64,000 bases of DNA from Dyadobacter sp. UC 10 (GTDB lineage: Bacteria > Bacteroidota > Bacteroidia > Cytophagales > Spirosomataceae): NCBI RefSeq assembly GCF_008369915.1, contig NZ_VSRN01000001.1, positions 682,001 to 746,000 of the forward strand. Direction: 5' to 3'. The translations under genes and the position numbers were made by a program. The notes under the pieces were generated by a model. The model was not told where the DNA came from. It searched no databases and was given only the letters and a program-made list of their open reading frames with translations. Of this stretch, positions 49,772 through 59,024 are shown piece by piece (the stretch's first letter is position 1; the number at the start of each line of letters is the position of its first letter).

Positions 49772-50545
49772 ATGAGTGAAACCAAATTTAACATAGCCGT
49801 ATTGATCGATGGGGACAATGCGCAGGCCAAATTGATGAAGGAAACTCTGGAAGAGGTTTCCAAATATGGGAAGGCAACTATTCGACGCATTTACGGTGAC
49901 TGGACTACGCAATACATGAACAGCTGGAAGGAAATCGTGAACCAGCATTCAATAAGTCCGATCCAGAAATTTTCCTATACAACAGGCAAAAACTCAACCG
50001 ACAGCTCGCTCATCATTGATGCAATGGACATTCTGCACAGCAAAAGCGTAGAAGGGTTTTGCATTGTTTCCAGCGACAGCGATTATACCGGACTGGCGAA
50101 AAGGATCCGGGAAGAAGGACTTTTTGTGATGGGAATCGGGCGGAAAAATACACCGATCGCATTCGTGAATTCCTGCGAGATATTCACATTCAGCGAAAAC
50201 CTCGTGGCTGAACTTGAAACGACTGCAGAAGAACCCGAGCCGCTGAAAGTGGATGTTACCCCGAGGGAAATCATAAAAAAAGAGCCGAAAAAGCAGGAGA
50301 CCAAACGCAGATACCCGAAGATCGATATGAACATCATTGATAAGGCATTTGAAATTTCCGCTAATGAGGAAGAAGAAGCATTCATTTCTAAAATAGGCAC
50401 CTCGCTCCGTAAAATCGACCCCAGTTTTGACTCCAGAACGTATGGCTTCAAGACATTGACCTCACTTTTCAAGAGCCTGGATAAATATAAAATCGTCAAA
50501 AATGACGTAAATGGCCTGAACCATCCGCTGGTAAAGCTGAAATAA
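49772..50545 (+). CDS. LabA-like NYN-domain protein with C-terminal LOTUS/OST-HTH domain
   Basis: 257 residues. The N-terminal NYN (PIN-like) nuclease domain (about 5-150) starts NIAVLIDGDNAQAKLMKETL, with Asp13 and Asp15, and contains VSSDSDYTGLAKRIREEG with further acidic residues, so an active metal-dependent RNase is likely. A charged linker (about 155-185) leads to a LOTUS/OST-HTH domain (about 186-257, NEEEEAFISKIGTSLRKIDP), which in relatives binds RNA. The combination suggests RNA turnover; the target is unknown. Confidence 0.88.
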   Translation: MSETKFNIAVLIDGDNAQAKLMKETLEEVSKYGKATIRRIYGDWTTQYMNSWKEIVNQHSISPIQKFSYTTGKNSTDSSLIIDAMDILHSKSVEGFCIVSSDSDYTGLAKRIREEGLFVMGIGRKNTPIAFVNSCEIFTFSENLVAELETTAEEPEPLKVDVTPREIIKKEPKKQETKRRYPKIDMNIIDKAFEISANEEEEAFISKIGTSLRKIDPSFDSRTYGFKTLTSLFKSLDKYKIVKNDVNGLNHPLVKLK

Positions 50546-52236: not shown

Positions 52237-52288
52237 CTTGTGTAAGTAAATACTTACGCGTACTATTGTGTAAGCAAATACTTACACG
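52237..52288 (+). promoter_or_regulatory. Promoter with two palindromic ArsR operators (operon A)
   Basis: Operator 1: GTGTAAG-N6-CTTACGC (52240-52259). Operator 2: GTGTAAG-N6-CTTACAC (52268-52287, perfect 7-bp arms). Centres are 28 bases apart. CTTG (52237-52240), 20 bases, then TACTATTG (52261-52268) resembles the Bacteroidota TTTG-N20-TAnnTTTG promoter with one mismatch in each box. Operator 1 lies between the boxes, operator 2 covers the likely start of transcription, and the ATG follows at 52291. Confidence 0.82.
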
Positions 52289-52290
52289 TT

Positions 52291-52650
52291 ATGTCAATCG
52301 AAGCGAGAAGGGACGTTTTTCAGGCTATTTCAGACCCTACCAGGCGGCAGATTATTAATCTGATCGCGAAGAAATCCATGAACCTGAATGCGATTGCCGA
52401 TAATTTTGAAATCAGCAGGCCGGCTATTTCCCAACATATTAAGATCCTTACCGAATGCGGAATGGTGGTGGTGAGACAGGAAGGGCGCGAGCGGTTTTGT
52501 GAGGCAAAACTGGATAGCTTGAAGGAGGTTTCGAATTGGGTAGATCAATACAAACAGTTCTGGAACCAGCAATTCGATTCGCTGGAAAGCTACCTGGGCA
52601 AAATTCAGGCAAATAACCAATCCAATAACAATCAATCAAACGACAAATAA
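52291..52650 (+). CDS. ArsR-family transcriptional regulator (operon A)
   Basis: 119-residue winged-helix repressor: VFQAISDPTRRQIINLIAKK at the start, helix-turn-helix MNLNAIADNFEISRPAISQH then IKILTECGMVV and wing RQEGRERFCEA. No Cys pair for metal binding is present, so it belongs to the ArsR group that is paired with AHSA1/SRPBCC genes and does not look like a metal sensor. The C-terminus is Asn/Gln-rich. It is preceded by two palindromes that are surely its own operators and followed after one base by the AHSA1 gene. Confidence 0.92.
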   Translation: MSIEARRDVFQAISDPTRRQIINLIAKKSMNLNAIADNFEISRPAISQHIKILTECGMVVVRQEGRERFCEAKLDSLKEVSNWVDQYKQFWNQQFDSLESYLGKIQANNQSNNNQSNDK

Positions 52651-52651
52651 G

Positions 52652-53164
52652 ATGGAAGAGCAAACAGAAAAAAAAGCAGGTTTAAAAATCGTGCGCGAGT
52701 TCAAAGCACCTAAGACATTGGTTTTCGACGCATTTGCATCACCGGATGCGTTCGCACAATGGTGGGGACCGGCTGGCAGTCGGCTTACCGTAGAAAGTTT
52801 CGATTTCAAGCCCGGCGGCAAAACGCACTACAAAATGGATGGTAATGGCCACGTGATGTGGGGGTTATTTCAATACAAAAATATCCAGCGCGCCGACCTT
52901 CTCGAATTCATCAACTCTTTTGCCGACGCAGATGGAAACATCATCACGTCGCCCTTCCCTATGGATTTCCCGTTAGAGGTTTTAAATAAAATTACGCTGG
53001 AAGAAAACGAAGGAATCACAACCCTGACGATCCAGGGGCGCCCTATCAACGCAACTCCTGCCCAGGAGGACACTTACTTTTCAATCATGGACAGCATGCA
53101 GCAGGGCTTCGGCGGTACGTTTGATCAGCTGGAAGCTTATTTGGAAAAAAGCCAGGCGCAGTAA
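52652..53164 (+). CDS. AHSA1/SRPBCC-domain protein (operon A)
   Basis: 170 residues in one START-like (SRPBCC) domain: LKIVREFKAPKTLVFDAFAS then FAQWWGPAGSRLTVESFDFK and GGTFDQLEAYLEKSQAQ. This fold binds hydrophobic ligands in a deep cavity; relatives are called activators of Hsp90 ATPase only by similarity. The ATG comes two bases after the ArsR stop. The protein may bind the small molecule to which the regulator system responds (inference). Confidence 0.9.
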   Translation: MEEQTEKKAGLKIVREFKAPKTLVFDAFASPDAFAQWWGPAGSRLTVESFDFKPGGKTHYKMDGNGHVMWGLFQYKNIQRADLLEFINSFADADGNIITSPFPMDFPLEVLNKITLEENEGITTLTIQGRPINATPAQEDTYFSIMDSMQQGFGGTFDQLEAYLEKSQAQ

Positions 53165-53445
53165 TCCAAAACCGGGTTAGCTTAACAGTTCAGGATTTGA
53201 GAAATTCTTTTGAAATCGGGTTATTTTCGATAAAGATTTTCTTTTCCTGAGCTTGTTATAACAACAATGCACCAGTCTTATTTGGGATTTGTCCCCTATG
53301 ACCTTCGAGTTTTATGGCTGGAAAGTGAGTTTGTATTCGACATGGTCAGGAAAGAAAAAGCAGGGTAAGGAAAAAACTGAATGCGTTTTTAGCTAATTTG
53401 AAACCGTTTCATTCCGCGCTGTTTGCGCAGTTATCCTTTAAGTAA

Positions 53446-54330
53446 ATGATCAAGCCACTTTACTCCTGCCTCTGGTTCGCATTTTTCTCACTTTCTTTTT
53501 TTGTTTCAAAAGCCCAGCTAATCTCTGATTCCCTGCTCATTGAAGGCAGGCAACGCGTTTTTGTTTACGATAAATCTGTAAAAACAAAACCTGGCGCCAG
53601 TCTGGTTTTTGTCATGCATGGTTCGGGAGGTGAGCCGAGGGGGCTTGTGCCAAAAGCGGCTAAGTTACAGGCGCGGGCAGAAGCTGAAAATGTAGTACTG
53701 GTGTATCCCGCGGGCTATAAGAGGTATTGGAATGAATGCCGCAAGGCCTCTACTGCTCTTGCAAATACAGAGAATGTGAACGAAGAGGCCTTCTTCTCGG
53801 CTATGATCGATTATTTCTCTAAACTGTATAAGATCAACAAAGCAAATGTGTTTGCGACAGGTTTTTCGGGCGGCGGGCATATGTCGTACAAGCTGGCGCT
53901 GACTATGCCGGGCAAAATCAAAGCGATCTCCGCGATCGTTGCCAATATGCCTACCGAAGAAAATATGGATTGCACACCCATGCATGTACCCTTGCCCGTG
54001 ATGATCACCAATGGTACTGCGGATGAAACGAATCCTTACAATGGTGGTGAAGTCAAAACGTCGGGAGTAACGTTGGGCACTGTACGTCCCACGGAAGAGT
54101 CCTTTCAATATTGGGCAAAACTCGATGGATACAGCGGCCCACCAGCGAAATCAATGTTCCCCGACGCGAATCCCAACAACAATATTACCGTCGAAAAATA
54201 CACTTACGCTCAAAAAGGAAAACCGGAAGTGACGCTGTTAAAAGTGGTGAACGGAAAGCACGAATTTGTAACGGACTTCGACATGTTCGAAGAATCCTGG
54301 GCGTTTTTCAAGCGGCAGATCAAGAAGTGA
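53446..54330 (+). CDS. Secreted esterase of the PHB-depolymerase/CE1-like (LpqC) group
   Basis: 294 residues with signal peptide about 1-23. The alpha/beta-hydrolase core shows SLVFVMHGSGGEPRG (oxyanion region), VFATGFSGGGHMSYKLAL with the nucleophile Ser in G-x-S-x-G, the acid in MITNGTADETNPY and the His in NGKHEF. These enzymes hydrolyse feruloyl or acetyl esters on polysaccharide or short polyesters. It stands alone between the AHSA1 operon and a convergent AhpD-like gene. Confidence 0.85.
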   Translation: MIKPLYSCLWFAFFSLSFFVSKAQLISDSLLIEGRQRVFVYDKSVKTKPGASLVFVMHGSGGEPRGLVPKAAKLQARAEAENVVLVYPAGYKRYWNECRKASTALANTENVNEEAFFSAMIDYFSKLYKINKANVFATGFSGGGHMSYKLALTMPGKIKAISAIVANMPTEENMDCTPMHVPLPVMITNGTADETNPYNGGEVKTSGVTLGTVRPTEESFQYWAKLDGYSGPPAKSMFPDANPNNNITVEKYTYAQKGKPEVTLLKVVNGKHEFVTDFDMFEESWAFFKRQIKK

Positions 54331-54345
54331 TGTAATGCATCCTTC

Positions 54346-54717
54346 TCAATAAACCACCCCGCTTTTGTCCTCTCCGCCCGCCTTGCTTTCTTCTTCGAAC
54401 ATCCGCATGGCCATTAACCCATTCCCAACTGCACCGCCTGCGCGGATTGCGGCGGCGATGAATACCGTTTCGCCGATCTCCTCTTTGGTCGCACCGGCCT
54501 GCGCGGCCTTTTTAATGTGAGATTCAATGCAATAAGAGCATTGAGTCGTAAGTGCAACCGCCACCGACATCAGCTCCCTGTACTTGACCGGGATCACTCC
54601 GTCTGCCCGCTCTGCGGTATGTTTCAGATTAAAGAATGCAGCCGCCTCCTTGCGGGCGGCATTCACCAGACTATCTACATATTCACGGTCCTTCGGAGTT
54701 TGAAATTCAGTCGCCAT
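54346..54717 (-). CDS. Carboxymuconolactone decarboxylase-like (AhpD-type) protein
   Basis: 123 residues from ATG at 54717. The AhpD-type redox motif C60-S-Y-C63 with His67 (TTQCSYCIESH) is present in the middle of the helical CMD domain, preceded by PVKYRELMSVAVAL and followed by GATKEEIGETVFIAAAIRAG. AhpD-like proteins act as peroxidase partners; a true decarboxylase role is unlikely with the CxxC motif. Convergent with the esterase, 15 bases apart. Confidence 0.88.
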   Translation of the reverse strand: MATEFQTPKDREYVDSLVNAARKEAAAFFNLKHTAERADGVIPVKYRELMSVAVALTTQCSYCIESHIKKAAQAGATKEEIGETVFIAAAIRAGGAVGNGLMAMRMFEEESKAGGEDKSGVVY

Positions 54718-54742
54718 AAGATTTGACAAGATTGTTCTTAAA

Positions 54743-55048
54743 TCAAAGTTCGGGGCTGGGAATTTTACTGTTTTTTAGCAGTATATCTGTCCCCGGGGCA
54801 GCAATAGAATCCTGTAGCTCGGGAATGCGCAGACCTGAATCGGGTGACATTTCCTGATCCGGAACCACGTAGATCTGATCCTCCGGGTAATTGGGCAACA
54901 ATTTCGGGGTTACTTCATACTCAACAGGTACTTCAAACTCGCAGATCACTGTTTCAGGATCGGATCGCAGCGAAACAACGTAATGCACCCCAAGAAGTGC
55001 TGTAAAGAAACACACTACTACCAGGGTAATCTTTGCCATTTTCTTCAT
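54743..55048 (-). CDS. Small membrane-anchored or secreted hypothetical protein
   Basis: 101 residues beginning with a signal or membrane segment (KKMAKITLVVVCFFTALLGV). The remainder is a proline-rich acidic stretch (PVEYEVTPKLLPNYPEDQIY and LRIPELQDSIAAPGTD) without catalytic motif. It may be anchored in the inner membrane with the tail outside. No family recognised. Confidence 0.55.
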   Translation of the reverse strand: MKKMAKITLVVVCFFTALLGVHYVVSLRSDPETVICEFEVPVEYEVTPKLLPNYPEDQIYVVPDQEMSPDSGLRIPELQDSIAAPGTDILLKNSKIPSPEL

Positions 55049-55062
55049 AAAAGCAGAATTAT

Positions 55063-55087
55063 TAATATATAATAAAATTATATATTA
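55063..55087. promoter_or_regulatory. Perfect AT palindrome upstream of the small membrane protein
   Basis: TAATATATAAT (55063-55073) and ATTATATATTA (55077-55087) pair perfectly with a three-base loop. It is 15 bases upstream of the minus-strand start at 55048, where a regulator or RNA hairpin could act; being pure A/T it may also be an easily melted promoter. Confidence 0.45.
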
Positions 55088-55180
55088 TAGGCGTTATTCC
55101 AAAAGATCAGACCATATTTTTAATCAATTAAATGGTGAAAACTGAGGGTATAAAAATAGTCCGGATTCATTATTTTCGAG

Positions 55181-55188
55181 TAAATTTG
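55181..55188 (+). promoter_or_regulatory. Putative -7 element for the thioredoxin-like/kinase operon
   Basis: TAAATTTG matches TAnnTTTG exactly, 50 bases before the ATG at 55239. No clear TTTG was seen 19-21 bases upstream, so this is provisional. Confidence 0.4.
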
Positions 55189-55238
55189 ACATTAAGGATA
55201 ACATAGTTAATCAACATGACCACAGAAACTTCTACCCG

Positions 55239-55838
55239 ATGATTAGAATAGCCCTGGTAACCGCCTGGCTCTCATTTTTGCTATCCATGGTCGGAGCGTT
55301 GTTCTGGTATCATGATTGGGTATATCAACTTCCCACGCCGGTACCCCGAGATTACGTGCCCGTAGCAACGGGGACGAAAATCAATCTGGACCAAAAGCTG
55401 CCAAATCACGACGGGAAGCCTGTCTTACTGCATTTCTATAATCCGGATTGTCCTTGCTCGCGGTTTAATAAAAGCCACTTTCAATCGCTTGTCCGCTCTT
55501 TCAGCGGCGACGTAAGGTTTATGGTAGTGGTACTTTCTGACAAAAAATTCACTGTCGACGACATTCAGGACAAGATCGGTCTGGACATTCCGGTCAGTTT
55601 CGACCAGTCGCTCGCCACCCAATGCGGCGTGTATTCAACGCCTCAGGCTGCACTGATTGACACAGATCATAGGTTATATTATCGCGGCAATTACAACGCC
55701 AGCCGCTACTGTACGGACGAACAAACTGCTTTCGCAAAAATTGCCCTGGAAGGTCTTCTCCAAAATGAGTCGTTGCCAATCCTGGACAGGAAGGCACTTA
55801 CGTCCTACGGATGCACCATGCCGGTCTGCAAAAATTAA
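55239..55838 (+). CDS. Thioredoxin-like (DUF6436-type) membrane-anchored protein with CxC motif
   Basis: 199 residues. An N-terminal membrane anchor (about 5-25) is followed by a thioredoxin/AhpC-like domain (about 45-180): DGKPVLLHFYNPDCPCSRFN with the motif C-P-C in the active-site position, then FMVVVLSDKKF and TPQAALIDTDHRLYYRGNYN. The cis-Pro of Trx folds is seen in STPQAALID. The pattern fits periplasmic thiol-disulfide proteins, but C-x-C instead of C-x-x-C leaves open reductase or isomerase activity. Twelve bases separate it from the hybrid kinase, so the two are surely co-transcribed. Confidence 0.8.
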   Translation: MIRIALVTAWLSFLLSMVGALFWYHDWVYQLPTPVPRDYVPVATGTKINLDQKLPNHDGKPVLLHFYNPDCPCSRFNKSHFQSLVRSFSGDVRFMVVVLSDKKFTVDDIQDKIGLDIPVSFDQSLATQCGVYSTPQAALIDTDHRLYYRGNYNASRYCTDEQTAFAKIALEGLLQNESLPILDRKALTSYGCTMPVCKN

Positions 55839-55850
55839 AACCCCAATAAA

Positions 55851-58109
55851 ATGATATTGGAAACAAGAGACGCTTCGCCCAACCAGCCGGTTGGTAATTT
55901 TCTTTCCGGGATCAAAGAGCGATCCGACCATCTGATGAATTTGTTCCTGCCCGGTTATTTCCTGATCGGCCTGATTCTGGCGGCATTTTATGACACCTGG
56001 TTTATCGCTGTTGGCGTGGGCGGAACATTACTCATTGCTTACTATTCCATCAAGTTCGCCCTGCCGAATTCCGACCTCTACCAATACGTTCTGAGTACGG
56101 CCCTGGGGATTTTTATGGCGCAGTTCATTTATCAGATGCATGGGCTGTTCGAAATGCACTTTTTTGCATTCATAGGCAGTGCCGTGCTGATCACCTATCA
56201 GAAATGGAAACTGCAGGTTCCTATTATGGTTGTAGTGCTGGTACATCATGCCGTTTTCGGGTATCTGCAAAACACCGGTCTCACTGAAATTTATTTTACC
56301 AGGCTCTCTTATTTCGACCTGCTGACCTTCACGATCCATATTCTGCTCGCAGCAGCGATCTTCTTTATTTGCGGACTATGGTCCTACATGCTGAACAAAT
56401 TTTATAAAATGCATATTGACCAGACCATGCAGATGGCTGAGCTGCAAAAAGAAGTACAACTTTCACTGGTGCGTAAACAGAATGAAGAAATTCAGAAAAG
56501 AGCAAACGACCGCCTTCGCCAAAGTAATGCAGAATTAGAAAAAGCACGTCAGGAAGCCGATAAAGCCAACCAGGCGAAAAGTGTTTTCCTCGCTACGATG
56601 AGCCACGAAATACGCACACCGATGAACGGCGTAATCGGAATGGCGGCCCTGCTGCAGGAAACGAAACTGTCGGAAGAACAGCGCATGTTTACTGAAACAA
56701 TCGCTACCTGCGGAGAAACGCTTATCAACGTGATCAACGATATTCTTGATTTTTCAAAGATCGAATCCGGCAACCTTGAACTTGAAAACGAGGACTTCAA
56801 CCTGCGGCAAAATATTGAGGACGTACTGGATATTTTTGGAGGAAAAGCCGCCAAACTCGGCCTTGACCTTGTATACCAGATTGATGAACATATTCCAGCG
56901 CAGGTAGTCGGTGACCAGCTTCGGCTGCGGCAGATCCTGATCAATCTGATAGGTAATGCGATGAAATTTACCGAACAGGGCGAGGTTTGCGTTTTTGTAA
57001 CCCAGGAAAAAACAGGCGCCGACGGCAGCCTGCAATTGCGGTTTGATGTGCGCGACACAGGAATAGGCATTTCCAAAGACAAAATGAACCGGCTTTTTAA
57101 AGCATTTTCACAAGTCGATTCTTCAACCACCCGCAAATACGGCGGTTCCGGGCTGGGACTCGCTATTTCTGAAAAACTTGTAAAGTTAATGGGGGGCGAA
57201 ATCATGGTGACCAGCGAAATTGACAAGGGATCCACATTCTCATTTACTTTCAAAACCACGGAGGGCACCAGGGAACTCCCGTCTTACACTGACCACGATA
57301 TGGACGAGCATCGGGGTAAAAAGGTACTTTTGGTAGATGACAATGCGACCAACCTGGCCATACTGAAACGCCAGATGCAGAACTGGAAACTGGAACCGAT
57401 GCTTGCAGCCTCCGGCGCTGAGGCACTGGAAATACTATTCAGTAACCAGGAAATCGATCTGGTGATCACCGATATGCAGATGCCGGCCATGGATGGCGTT
57501 ACGCTGGGAGCAAATATCCGTCGTTATACGCCCGAAACACCTATTATCCTGCTTAGTTCTATTGGGGAAGAATTAAAAGACAAGCACCGGCAGCTATTCT
57601 CTTCCGTGCTCTCGAAGCCAATCCGTCAGCACATTCTGAGCACCCACATCATGAATGCGTTGCAGAAAAAATTCCTTCAGAAAACGGAACACGCGACGCA
57701 AAACAAGCTTTCAACTGAATTCTCGAAACGCTATCCGCTGGAAATGCTGGTGGCGGAAGACAACAAGATCAATCAGCACGTGATTGTCCGGATCCTGCAA
57801 AAGCTGGGCTACGAACCCGACATCGCCAAAGACGGACAGGAAGCTTTGCAAGCATCCAATCACAAAAACTATGATCTCATTCTGATGGATATGCAAATGC
57901 CGGTCATGGACGGAATCGAAGCGACGCACCTGATACGCAAAACTCTTGTACATCAGCCAGTTATAGTCGCTCTGACTGCCAATGCACTGGAAGGGACACA
58001 GCAGCAATGCCTGGACGCCGGTATGGACGATTACCTCAGCAAGCCAATCAAATTGGAGGAGCTGATGTCTAAAATCAGAAAATGGGCACGTGAGAGTGTG
58101 AAAAGCTGA
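55851..58109 (+). CDS. Hybrid sensor histidine kinase with two receiver domains
   Basis: 752 residues. An N-terminal membrane region with about six helices (about 25-185) has no recognised sensor module. A coiled coil (about 190-240) leads to the HisKA domain with the phosphate-accepting His252 ([11 protein letters not shown]), HATPase_c (about 350-475, [19 protein letters not shown] and GGSGLGLAI), receiver 1 (about 490-600, Asp541 in [11 protein letters not shown]) and receiver 2 (about 625-745, Asp680 in [11 protein letters not shown]). Both phospho-acceptor Asp are kept. No Hpt domain is fused, so a separate one is needed. Its link with the thioredoxin-like protein suggests sensing of redox state (inference). 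Confidence 0.93.
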
Positions 58110-58144
58110 CTTGAAATTTTCCCGACATTTTTTTTTCAGAAAAA

Positions 58145-58192
58145 TTTGCGCAACTATAAAGTTGCGCCTATATTTGCAACCATAACATTGCA
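58145..58192 (+). promoter_or_regulatory. Promoter with two palindromic ArsR operators (operon B)
   Basis: TTTG (58145-58148), 20 bases, TATATTTG (58169-58176): an exact match to TTTG-N20-TAnnTTTG. Operator 1 GCGCAAC-N6-GTTGCGC (58148-58167, perfect 7-bp arms) fills the spacer. Operator 2 TGCAAC-N6-ATTGCA (58175-58192, one mismatch) covers the expected transcription start. Centres are 26 bases apart. The geometry is that of operon A with a different half-site sequence. ATG at 58196. Confidence 0.85.
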
Positions 58193-58195
58193 CTT

Positions 58196-58534
58196 ATGCC
58201 TAAAGAAATCAGGAGAGACGTATTTCAAGCCATCGCAGACCCTACAAGGAGAGCTATCCTAAGTTTAATCGCATTACAGGCTATGACACCCAATGCATTG
58301 GCTGAGCATTTTGATACCAGCAGACAGGCGGTTTCAAAACATATTAAAATATTGACCGAATGCCAGCTCGTAACCCAACAACTTTCTGGCAGGGAAATTT
58401 TGTATCATTTTAACGCAAAGCAAATGAAGGAGGTAGATCAGTGGCTGCAACAATTCAAAAAGCTTTGGGAAGATCGTTTTAGTCAGCTAGACCAGGTATT
58501 ACTTAACTTAAAACCAGACGATTATGAAAAGTAA
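58196..58534 (+). CDS. ArsR-family transcriptional regulator (operon B)
   Basis: 112-residue paralogue of the regulator at 52291: [20 protein letters not shown], helix-turn-helix [20 protein letters not shown] then [11 protein letters not shown] and a wing [11 protein letters not shown]. The recognition helix differs (TSRQAVSKH against ISRPAISQH), as do the operators. No metal-binding Cys. The AHSA1 gene begins inside its end (11-base overlap). Confidence 0.92.
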
Positions 58535-59024
58535 TGTTTTGATGAATTTCAGTATCGACAAGGAAAACAAGAAGATTAAAGTAGAAAGGGAATTTGATGC
58601 GCCGGTGGCCAGGGTGTGGCCTGCCTGGACTGAAAAAGAACTGCTTGACCAATGGTGGGCGCCCAAACCCTGGAAAGCCAGGACCAAAACAATGGATTTC
58701 AGAGAAGGAGGGCACTGGTTATATGCAATGGTAGGTCCCGAAGGTGAAGAACATTGGGCTCGTGCGGATTACCAAAAAATCTCACCGCTCCGGTCATTTA
58801 CAGCCAAAGACGCATTTTCCGATGCCGATGGAAATGTAAATGAATCTATGCCGGTCTCAACCTGGGAGAATACATTCAAGGAAGAATCGAGCAAGACACT
58901 TGTCTTTGTTGATATCACATTTGATAACGTGTCCGATATGGAACAACAGCTGGAAATGGGCTTCAAAGAAGGTTTCGAAATGGGGCTGTCCAACCTGGAT
59001 GAGTTACTGGCTGCACAGAAGTAA
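58524..59024 (+). CDS. AHSA1/SRPBCC-domain protein (operon B)
   Basis: 166 residues in one SRPBCC domain: [20 protein letters not shown] then [40 protein letters not shown] and [16 protein letters not shown]. Close to the operon A protein in length and organisation. The start overlaps the regulator gene; a later Met (58542) is possible. It ends before a strong bidirectional terminator. Confidence 0.9.

Follow-up and report, generated by a model that had tools for sequence, protein, structure and literature searches.

Repressors of the ArsR type are widespread among bacteria, and for many of them no operator is known. A 2009 study (PMC2701414) presented the pairing of an ArsR gene with a COG3832 (Aha1) gene as a two-gene module that is widespread, shows expansions and lacks metal motifs. 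Here we analyze two such operons, termed A and B, in Dyadobacter sp. UC 10, together with the tandem palindromes that precede them, whose letters appear to be set by the recognition helix of the adjacent regulator. Both lie in a window of 64,000 nucleotides (the whole stretch analyzed; contig NZ_VSRN01000001.1, positions 682,001 to 746,000), from whose first letter positions are counted below. The operons resemble the described module in that the ArsR gene stands beside an AHSA1 (PF08327) gene, several copies are present (five here), and a metal-binding motif is absent; the available parts of PMC2701414 describe no operator, promoter architecture or residue-to-base code.

Other systems are comparable in part. 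NolR and RexT share the winged-helix ArsR fold, but in the available parts of PMC8960804 they are single regulators with other signals and other operators, (A/T)TTAG-N9-A(T/A) and ATTCG-N15-CGAAT, and no family-wide code is given. The SdpR family (NF033789) likewise comprises small ArsR-like autorepressors; however, the SdpR record among the plasmid loci discussed below (L358) is followed by SdpI rather than AHSA1, and regulators A and B, at 65.0 and 71.9 bits, do not reach the family cut-off of 100 bits. The correlation of regulator residues with operator bases is an established method for the IclR, MerR and GntR families, and the MerR and GntR studies (PMC5045206, PMC4494728) reportedly apply the same type of protein-DNA analysis. 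In the IclR study, mutual information likewise relates helix-turn-helix residues to motif bases, in a different family; in its available parts the word ArsR occurs once (PMC8222616). No ArsR recognition code and no ArsR-AHSA1 operator was found among the matches listed in the open literature, most subscription papers being outside this scope, and the available parts of PMC6555750 and PMC4486848 contain nothing on helix residues versus operator letters. The operon type is thus already known (PMC2701414), while for an ArsR recognition code no published precedent was found in the open literature.

As a sequence-only reading of this DNA had reported, each of the two ArsR-AHSA1 operons is preceded by two tandem palindromes that lie over -33-like and -7-like boxes:

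52237..52240, + strand: -33-like box CTTG of operon A, read from the sequence
52240..52259, no strand: predicted operator palindrome 1 of A, half-sites GTAAG/GTAAG, 6/7 arm pairs matching
52261..52268, + strand: -7-like box TACTATTG of operon A, one base off TAnnTTTG
52268..52287, no strand: predicted operator palindrome 2 of A, half-sites GTAAG/GTAAG, 7/7 arm pairs matching
52291..52650, + strand: ArsR-family regulator A (Pfam HTH_5, 48.6 bits; NCBIfam NF033788, 74.9 bits, cut-off 55; AlphaFold2 mean predicted local distance difference test score 90.2)
52417..52455, + strand: recognition helix of A, residues 43-55 (RPAISQHIKILTE), a helix at 43-55 in the AlphaFold2 model, with residues 44, 45 and 48 covarying with operator bases 2, 4 and 5
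52652..53164, + strand: AHSA1 (COG3832-like) protein A (Pfam PF08327, 63.1 bits)
58145..58148, + strand: -33-like box TTTG of operon B, read from the sequence
58148..58167, no strand: predicted operator palindrome 1 of B, half-sites GCAAC/GCAAC, 7/7 arm pairs matching
58169..58176, + strand: -7-like box TATATTTG of operon B, TAnnTTTG
58174..58193, no strand: predicted, weak operator palindrome 2 of B, half-sites GCAAC/GCAAT, arms TTGCAAC/ATTGCAC, 5/7 arm pairs matching
58196..58534, + strand: ArsR-family regulator B (Pfam HTH_20, 47.9 bits; NF033788, 72.6 bits)
58322..58360, + strand: recognition helix of B, residues 43-55, by ungapped alignment to A
58524..59024, + strand: AHSA1 (COG3832-like) protein B (Pfam PF08327, 74.2 bits)

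We consider it very probable that each operon is a self-controlled ArsR-COG3832 (AHSA1) switch, in which the choice of palindrome is set by a residue-to-base code of the recognition helix. An ArsR dimer would read two tandem palindromes of the form 5'-G-b2-A-b4-b5-N6 followed by the mirror image. The palindromes cover both boxes (-33 and -7) as well as the start region, and ArsR would thereby block its own promoter; since operator and promoter overlap, a bound dimer would be expected to keep RNA polymerase out. Centres 26 bp apart are some two and a half turns from each other, so the two dimers would sit on opposite faces of the DNA. A signal would then release ArsR, so that ArsR and AHSA1 are made together. 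In the proposed code, residue 44 reads b2 (P for T; Q for C), residue 45 reads b4 (A for A; T for G), and residue 48 reads b5 (K or R for C; Q or L for G; N and V in few cases, partly for T). Regulator A (P44, A45, Q48) would read GTAAG, and regulator B (Q44, A45, K48) GCAAC.

Promoters of Bacteroidota follow a -33/-7 consensus, TTTG and TAnnTTTG about 20 bp apart, which the boxes of B match exactly and those of A with one mismatch in each box. In both operons 20 bases lie between the boxes, and the last base of the -33-like box is also the first of palindrome 1, as had been read. The geometry is nevertheless similar rather than identical, with palindromes starting 28 bp apart in A and 26 bp apart in B. 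Palindrome 1 ends one base before the -7-like box, where two had been counted, and palindrome 2 ends three bases (A) or two bases (B) before the ATG instead of four. Palindrome 2 begins with the final base of the -7-like box in A, whereas in B it overlaps the last three bases. The arms, given as GTGTAAG/CTTACAC (A) and GCGCAAC/GTTGCGC (B), pair in full in palindrome 2 of A and palindrome 1 of B, but not in palindrome 1 of A (6/7) or palindrome 2 of B (5/7). The recognition helices had been exchanged: A (GTGTAAG) carries ISRPAISQH, and B (GCGCAAC) carries TSRQAVSKH.

The layout recurs in relatives whose palindromes are spaced by 26 bp: of 209, 195 have a TTG whose last base is the first of palindrome 1, and 180 have TAnnTTTG at a fixed offset. 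Perfect palindromes of 7+6+7 bases occur at 14 positions in the whole window, one of them in each of the promoters A and B. The genome contains GTAAGN6CTTAC seven times (backward control, 8), two of these being the tandem pair upstream of A, and GCAACN6GTTGC three times (backward control, 4), one of them upstream of B. A wider regulon was considered and set aside, as exact half-site palindromes in the genome are not above the backward control; mismatched sites were not searched. The arrangement also bears on the idea that the palindromes are hairpins of an RNA leader, or promoter elements, rather than operators. Palindrome 2 does fall within the short leader, and boxes and palindromes have bases in common. 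Palindrome 1, however, precedes the -7 box and would be absent from the transcript, and the letters track the helix residues of the adjacent protein, which RNA folding does not require; we find this explanation scarcely credible.

The relatives used to examine the code were taken from public genome contigs (the best 80 of 579) and whole genomes. The 344 loci yielded 347 regulator hits, and removal of duplicates and of hits with <90 nt upstream left 312 that are unique by protein and upstream DNA. The main operator caller is anchored on G1 and A3 of the half-site, rewards symmetry, and is blind to the letters at b2, b4 and b5; the constancy of G1 and A3 is therefore partly by construction. Two palindromes above the 99% shuffle threshold were called for 281 of the 312 regulators, and these operators underlie the tree and the tables of half-site counts. 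In the held-out test of the first rule, regulators whose protein was identical to one used for training were left out. An AHSA1-like open reading frame follows 290 of 310 regulators with sufficient flanking DNA, and 271 of 279 that also have an operator. A second caller, fully blind to letters, places 178 of 312 regulators above its own 99% null, 12 of them probably on the wrong palindromes; its calls fit the first version of the rule at b2 in 156/172, at b4 in 161/172 and at b5 in 130/175 cases.

Across these 281 operators, the sequences argue strongly that the half-site tracks the recognition helix, with residue 44 setting b2, residue 45 setting b4 and residue 48 setting b5. The covariation anticipated by the sequence-only reading is thus present across Bacteroidota, and more pronounced than was claimed. 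With P44, b2 is T in 467/528 half-sites (regulators without R51 and without Y or A at 47), and with Q44 it is C in 363/380 (without R51). T45 is accompanied by G at b4 in 206/208 half-sites and A45 by A in 872/880. At b5, G is found with Q48 (125/128) and L48 (67/68), and C with K48 in the presence of A45 (579/644). In terms of whole helices, and with few exceptions, SRPA-S-Q-H is paired with GTAAG, SRPA-S-K-H with GTAAC, SRPA-S-N-H with GTAAT (two cases), SRQA-S-K-H mostly with GCAAC, SRQA-S-L-H with GCAAG, ARPT-S-K-H with GTAGT or GTAGC, and SRQT-S-K-H with GCAGT. Mutual information, computed for 95 protein columns over 84 cluster representatives (<75% identity outside the helix) as excess over shuffles, places column 44 first for b2 (1.02 bits; next column 0.45), column 45 first for b4 (0.40 bits; next 0.35, column 33) and column 48 first for b5 (0.80 bits; next 0.23). 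Arm positions -1, 0, 7 and 8 show an excess of at most 0.15 bits, and position 6, beside b5, shows 0.29 bits with residue 48.

Such correlations could arise by shared ancestry alone, if regulator and promoter were inherited together and each clade carried its own helix and palindrome without any contact between them. The regulator adjoins its operator and is co-inherited with it, among the 281 operators many are from genomes related to one another, and some signal is also seen outside the helix, in columns 32 and 33. This is in contrast to the changes seen by parsimony on a helix-free tree (helix columns excluded), where residue and base repeatedly change on the same branch and in both directions. 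Residue 44 changes 15 times and b2 29 times, with 12 changes on the same branch (0.78 expected); residue 48 changes 27 times and b5 34 times, with 13 on the same branch (1.64 expected); residue 45 changes 10 times and b4 three times, with two on the same branch (0.05 expected). All nine P/Q changes at 44 are paired with T/C changes at b2 in the coded direction. Matched disjoint pairs that differ at a single determinant, which are not independent events, point the same way: b5 differs in 51/55 pairs that differ at 48 and b2 in 69/70 pairs that differ at 44, against 118/2751 (b5) and 162/2751 (b2) of the pairs with equal determinants. The signal is moreover largely limited to b2, b4, b5 and the three helix columns, and predictions hold in new genomes. 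Ancestry without contact is accordingly a most improbable account of the data.

The sequence-only reading had envisaged one local duplication, after which regulator and operator diverged together to give two insulated switches. The two operons are indeed paralogous, lie 5.9 kb apart and have different half-sites. However, the genome (6.9 Mb, with 14 AHSA1 matches) holds five ArsR genes of the A/B subfamily, each followed by AHSA1, and the regulators A and B are 46% identical and not sisters. On the helix-free tree the distance between A and B is 2.10, while A lies 1.35 from the paralogue L001 and B 1.10 from L009, so that a single duplication giving A and B is contradicted, each being nearer another paralogue of its own genome. 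Both regulator types are also present in other genomes of the genus, and we regard the duplication scenario as very unlikely. The majority half-sites, read toward the six-base centre, are GTAAG for A, GCAAC for B, GTAAC for L001, GTAGT or GTAGC for L009, and GCAAC for L005; single half-sites deviate from the majority in B, L001, L009 and L005. Insulation is therefore predicted in part: A should be set apart from all four others, whereas B has the same majority half-site, GCAAC, as the operon at genome position 1471806, and cross-binding is predicted between these two. We also compared paralogues within 25 genomes, chosen for several fetched paralogues and compiled by hand (22 with ≥2 called operators); equal half-sites occur in 8/106 pairs, a trend only (permutation p 0.087).

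The first version of the rule was applied to later-fetched loci, where it gave the right letter at b2 in 134/170, at b4 in 163/164 and at b5 in 131/169 cases; the maxima among permutations were 87, 119 and 114. The misses led to two additions, namely that R51 allows A at b2 and that T45 with K48 allows T at b5. The refined rule was fixed before a phylum-wide search for new regulators, from which eight already seen were dropped. It gave the whole half-site correctly in 61 of 64 called operators, from 80 unseen regulators. Three of these loci (L386, L396, L405) belong to genomes sampled before; in the newly sampled genomes alone, 58 of 61 called operators are right (77 regulators, 16 uncalled). 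Where the rule names one letter throughout, 29/31 are right; shuffled operators reach 11.4 on average and 20 at most.

A number of observations weigh against so simple a code. The calling procedure itself favours symmetric sites and takes G1 and A3 as anchors, and 31 of the 312 regulators of the first set have no called operator. The first rule performed less well on held-out loci at b2 and b5 (the 134/170 and 131/169 given above), and 30 of the 61 new-genome operators have some base for which the refined rule allows two letters. Sixteen of the 80 later regulators are uncalled, four of them (L412, L432, L448, L457) without a palindrome by eye; L450 and L458 have a partial palindrome, and a palindrome of the predicted type is visible in L399, L414, L419, L422, L433, L436, L437, L441, L442 and L466. 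Of the 13 changes that residue 48 shares with b5 on one branch, two contradict the rule, K becoming N as C becomes G. The pairing of 45 with b4 is based on two tree events only, column 33 is nearly as informative, and b4 differs in only 13/19 matched pairs at 45; among 14 of these pairs listed, six are Ala/Ser pairs, and b4 differs in one of the six. N48 is accompanied by T in 14/24 half-sites with A45 and in 0/8 with G45; all eight half-sites of two P44 operators have T, and six Q44 operators have mixed letters. The evidence for V48 consists of two operators. In the operators of P44 K48 regulators, one half-site frequently shows A at b2.

The sample beyond Bacteroidota also counts in part against the code. 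It comprises 25 plasmid regulators of Pseudomonadota, Actinomycetota and Bacillota, picked from 60 listed of 554 records; the single best palindrome was chosen by script, 13 of the 25 loci had been viewed beforehand, not all are AHSA1 pairs (e.g. L348, L358, L365, L367), and several records lack annotation. The fit is partial, with 27/38 half-sites following the code at b5 (misses in L345, L355, L361, L362, L366 and half of L358) and 22/32 at b2 (misses in L348, L355, L361, L366, L367), and 5/25 loci have no palindrome. A regulator of Streptomyces clavuligerus with the helix SRPAISRH has GTAAC, as do Bacteroidota with the same helix. In a post hoc comparison, base 1 seems to go with residue 43: G is seen with R, A with Q (ATAAG in L351, L352 and L370), and T with L, F or V; misfits are L345, L355, L366 and L367. 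We marginally favour the view that a compact ArsR code extends beyond Bacteroidota, with residue 43 reading base 1 (R for G, Q for A, L/F/V for T), 44 base 2, 45 base 4 and 48 base 5. As for plasmids in general, the available text of PMC2701414 states that the pair was not detected there, while a later table of the same paper gives 13. We also note a plasmid of Spirosoma oryzicola (L357) that carries an ArsR-SRPBCC pair with two such palindromes.

Variants of the operator deserve separate mention. Among P44 K48 regulators, A stands at b2 in the right half-site of palindrome 1 in 33/64 operators, and the other three half-sites mostly have T. Regulators with Q44 and R51 (e.g. L193, L211, L238) show A, C, C, A at b2 over the four half-sites in 30/39 operators and in 7/9 later ones; the pattern corresponds to outer GAAAC and inner GCAAC half-sites mirrored about the -7 box, i.e. 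a pair of hetero-palindromes. It is found in just 2 of 6 clusters at 75% identity, and may therefore be the inheritance of one clade. Five promoters (L414, L419, L433, L441, L442) possibly have one palindrome rather than two, near the start codon and with the predicted half-site GTAAC, which hints at a one-site variant.

The proposed contacts can be placed on the ArsR fold. HTH_5 and HTH_20 scores above the Pfam cut-offs, and NF033788 scores above its cut-off, identify an ArsR winged-helix domain in both regulators, and the model of A matches 3f6o, 7p6f, NolR and CzrA in structure comparison. Residue 43 is the start of the recognition helix in this model. According to the available parts of PMC8960804, helix 4 makes most of the base contacts in NolR, where Gln56 is in contact with A or T; Gln56 corresponds to residue 43 here, by structure-alignment ranges taken as ungapped. 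The available parts of PMC8222616 count Arg-G, Asn-A, Gln-A and Lys-G with the most specific contacts. The pairings K48-C (G on the other strand), N48-T (A on the other strand), R43-G and Q43-A fit these contacts, and P44-T and Q44-C are less classical.

Regulator A is 92% identical to a regulator of Dyadobacter sp. Leaf189. A metal-binding motif is not required of all ArsR/SmtB members. The ArsR metal motifs quoted in the available parts of PMC8960804 (Cys in alpha3; DXHX10HXXE/H in alpha5) are absent from the sequences of A and B, in which the alpha3 region has no Cys and the last helix neither Cys nor His. A cysteine at residue 56, directly after the recognition helix (52456-52458 in A), is present in 298/312 regulators, including 213/227 of those from loci numbered ≥100, which were fetched without a motif containing it; Cys70 is present in 152/312. 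Cys56 could be a thiol sensor site. Ligand binding by the AHSA1 proteins, as assumed in the sequence-only reading, is predicted at the level of the family, whose superfold the available parts of PMC2577659 tie to the binding of large hydrophobic compounds.

The pair could alternatively act like a toxin-antitoxin module, with AHSA1 as toxin and ArsR as antitoxin and repressor, a reading that is compatible with the code. It is a two-gene operon with several copies per genome, and Makarova and colleagues considered this reading, the pair being among the candidate systems in PMC2701414; the available parts of that paper nevertheless favour a role in antibiotic resistance and report the pair as enriched on chromosomes. 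We judge the toxin-antitoxin reading very unlikely. Among neighbouring genes, a membrane-bound hybrid histidine kinase with two receiver domains (55851-58109) lies on the same strand as operon B and ends 35 nt upstream of its -33 box, so that read-through into B is possible. An NYN-domain protein with an OST-HTH/LOTUS domain is encoded at 49772-50545.

With the self-controlled switch as the preferred reading, three helix residues would give the half-site almost letter by letter, and operator prediction, regulon search and cross-talk between paralogues would become testable. Should the code hold beyond Bacteroidota, four helix residues would suffice to read many orphan ArsR-AHSA1 operators, and repressors insulated from one another could be selected at will. 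The family would constitute a natural set of differently addressed repressors on a common scaffold and promoter layout, in which the co-evolution of regulator and operator is seen as repeated, reversible steps. Related switches in one cell may thus be distinguished, and their targets read, from sequence alone.

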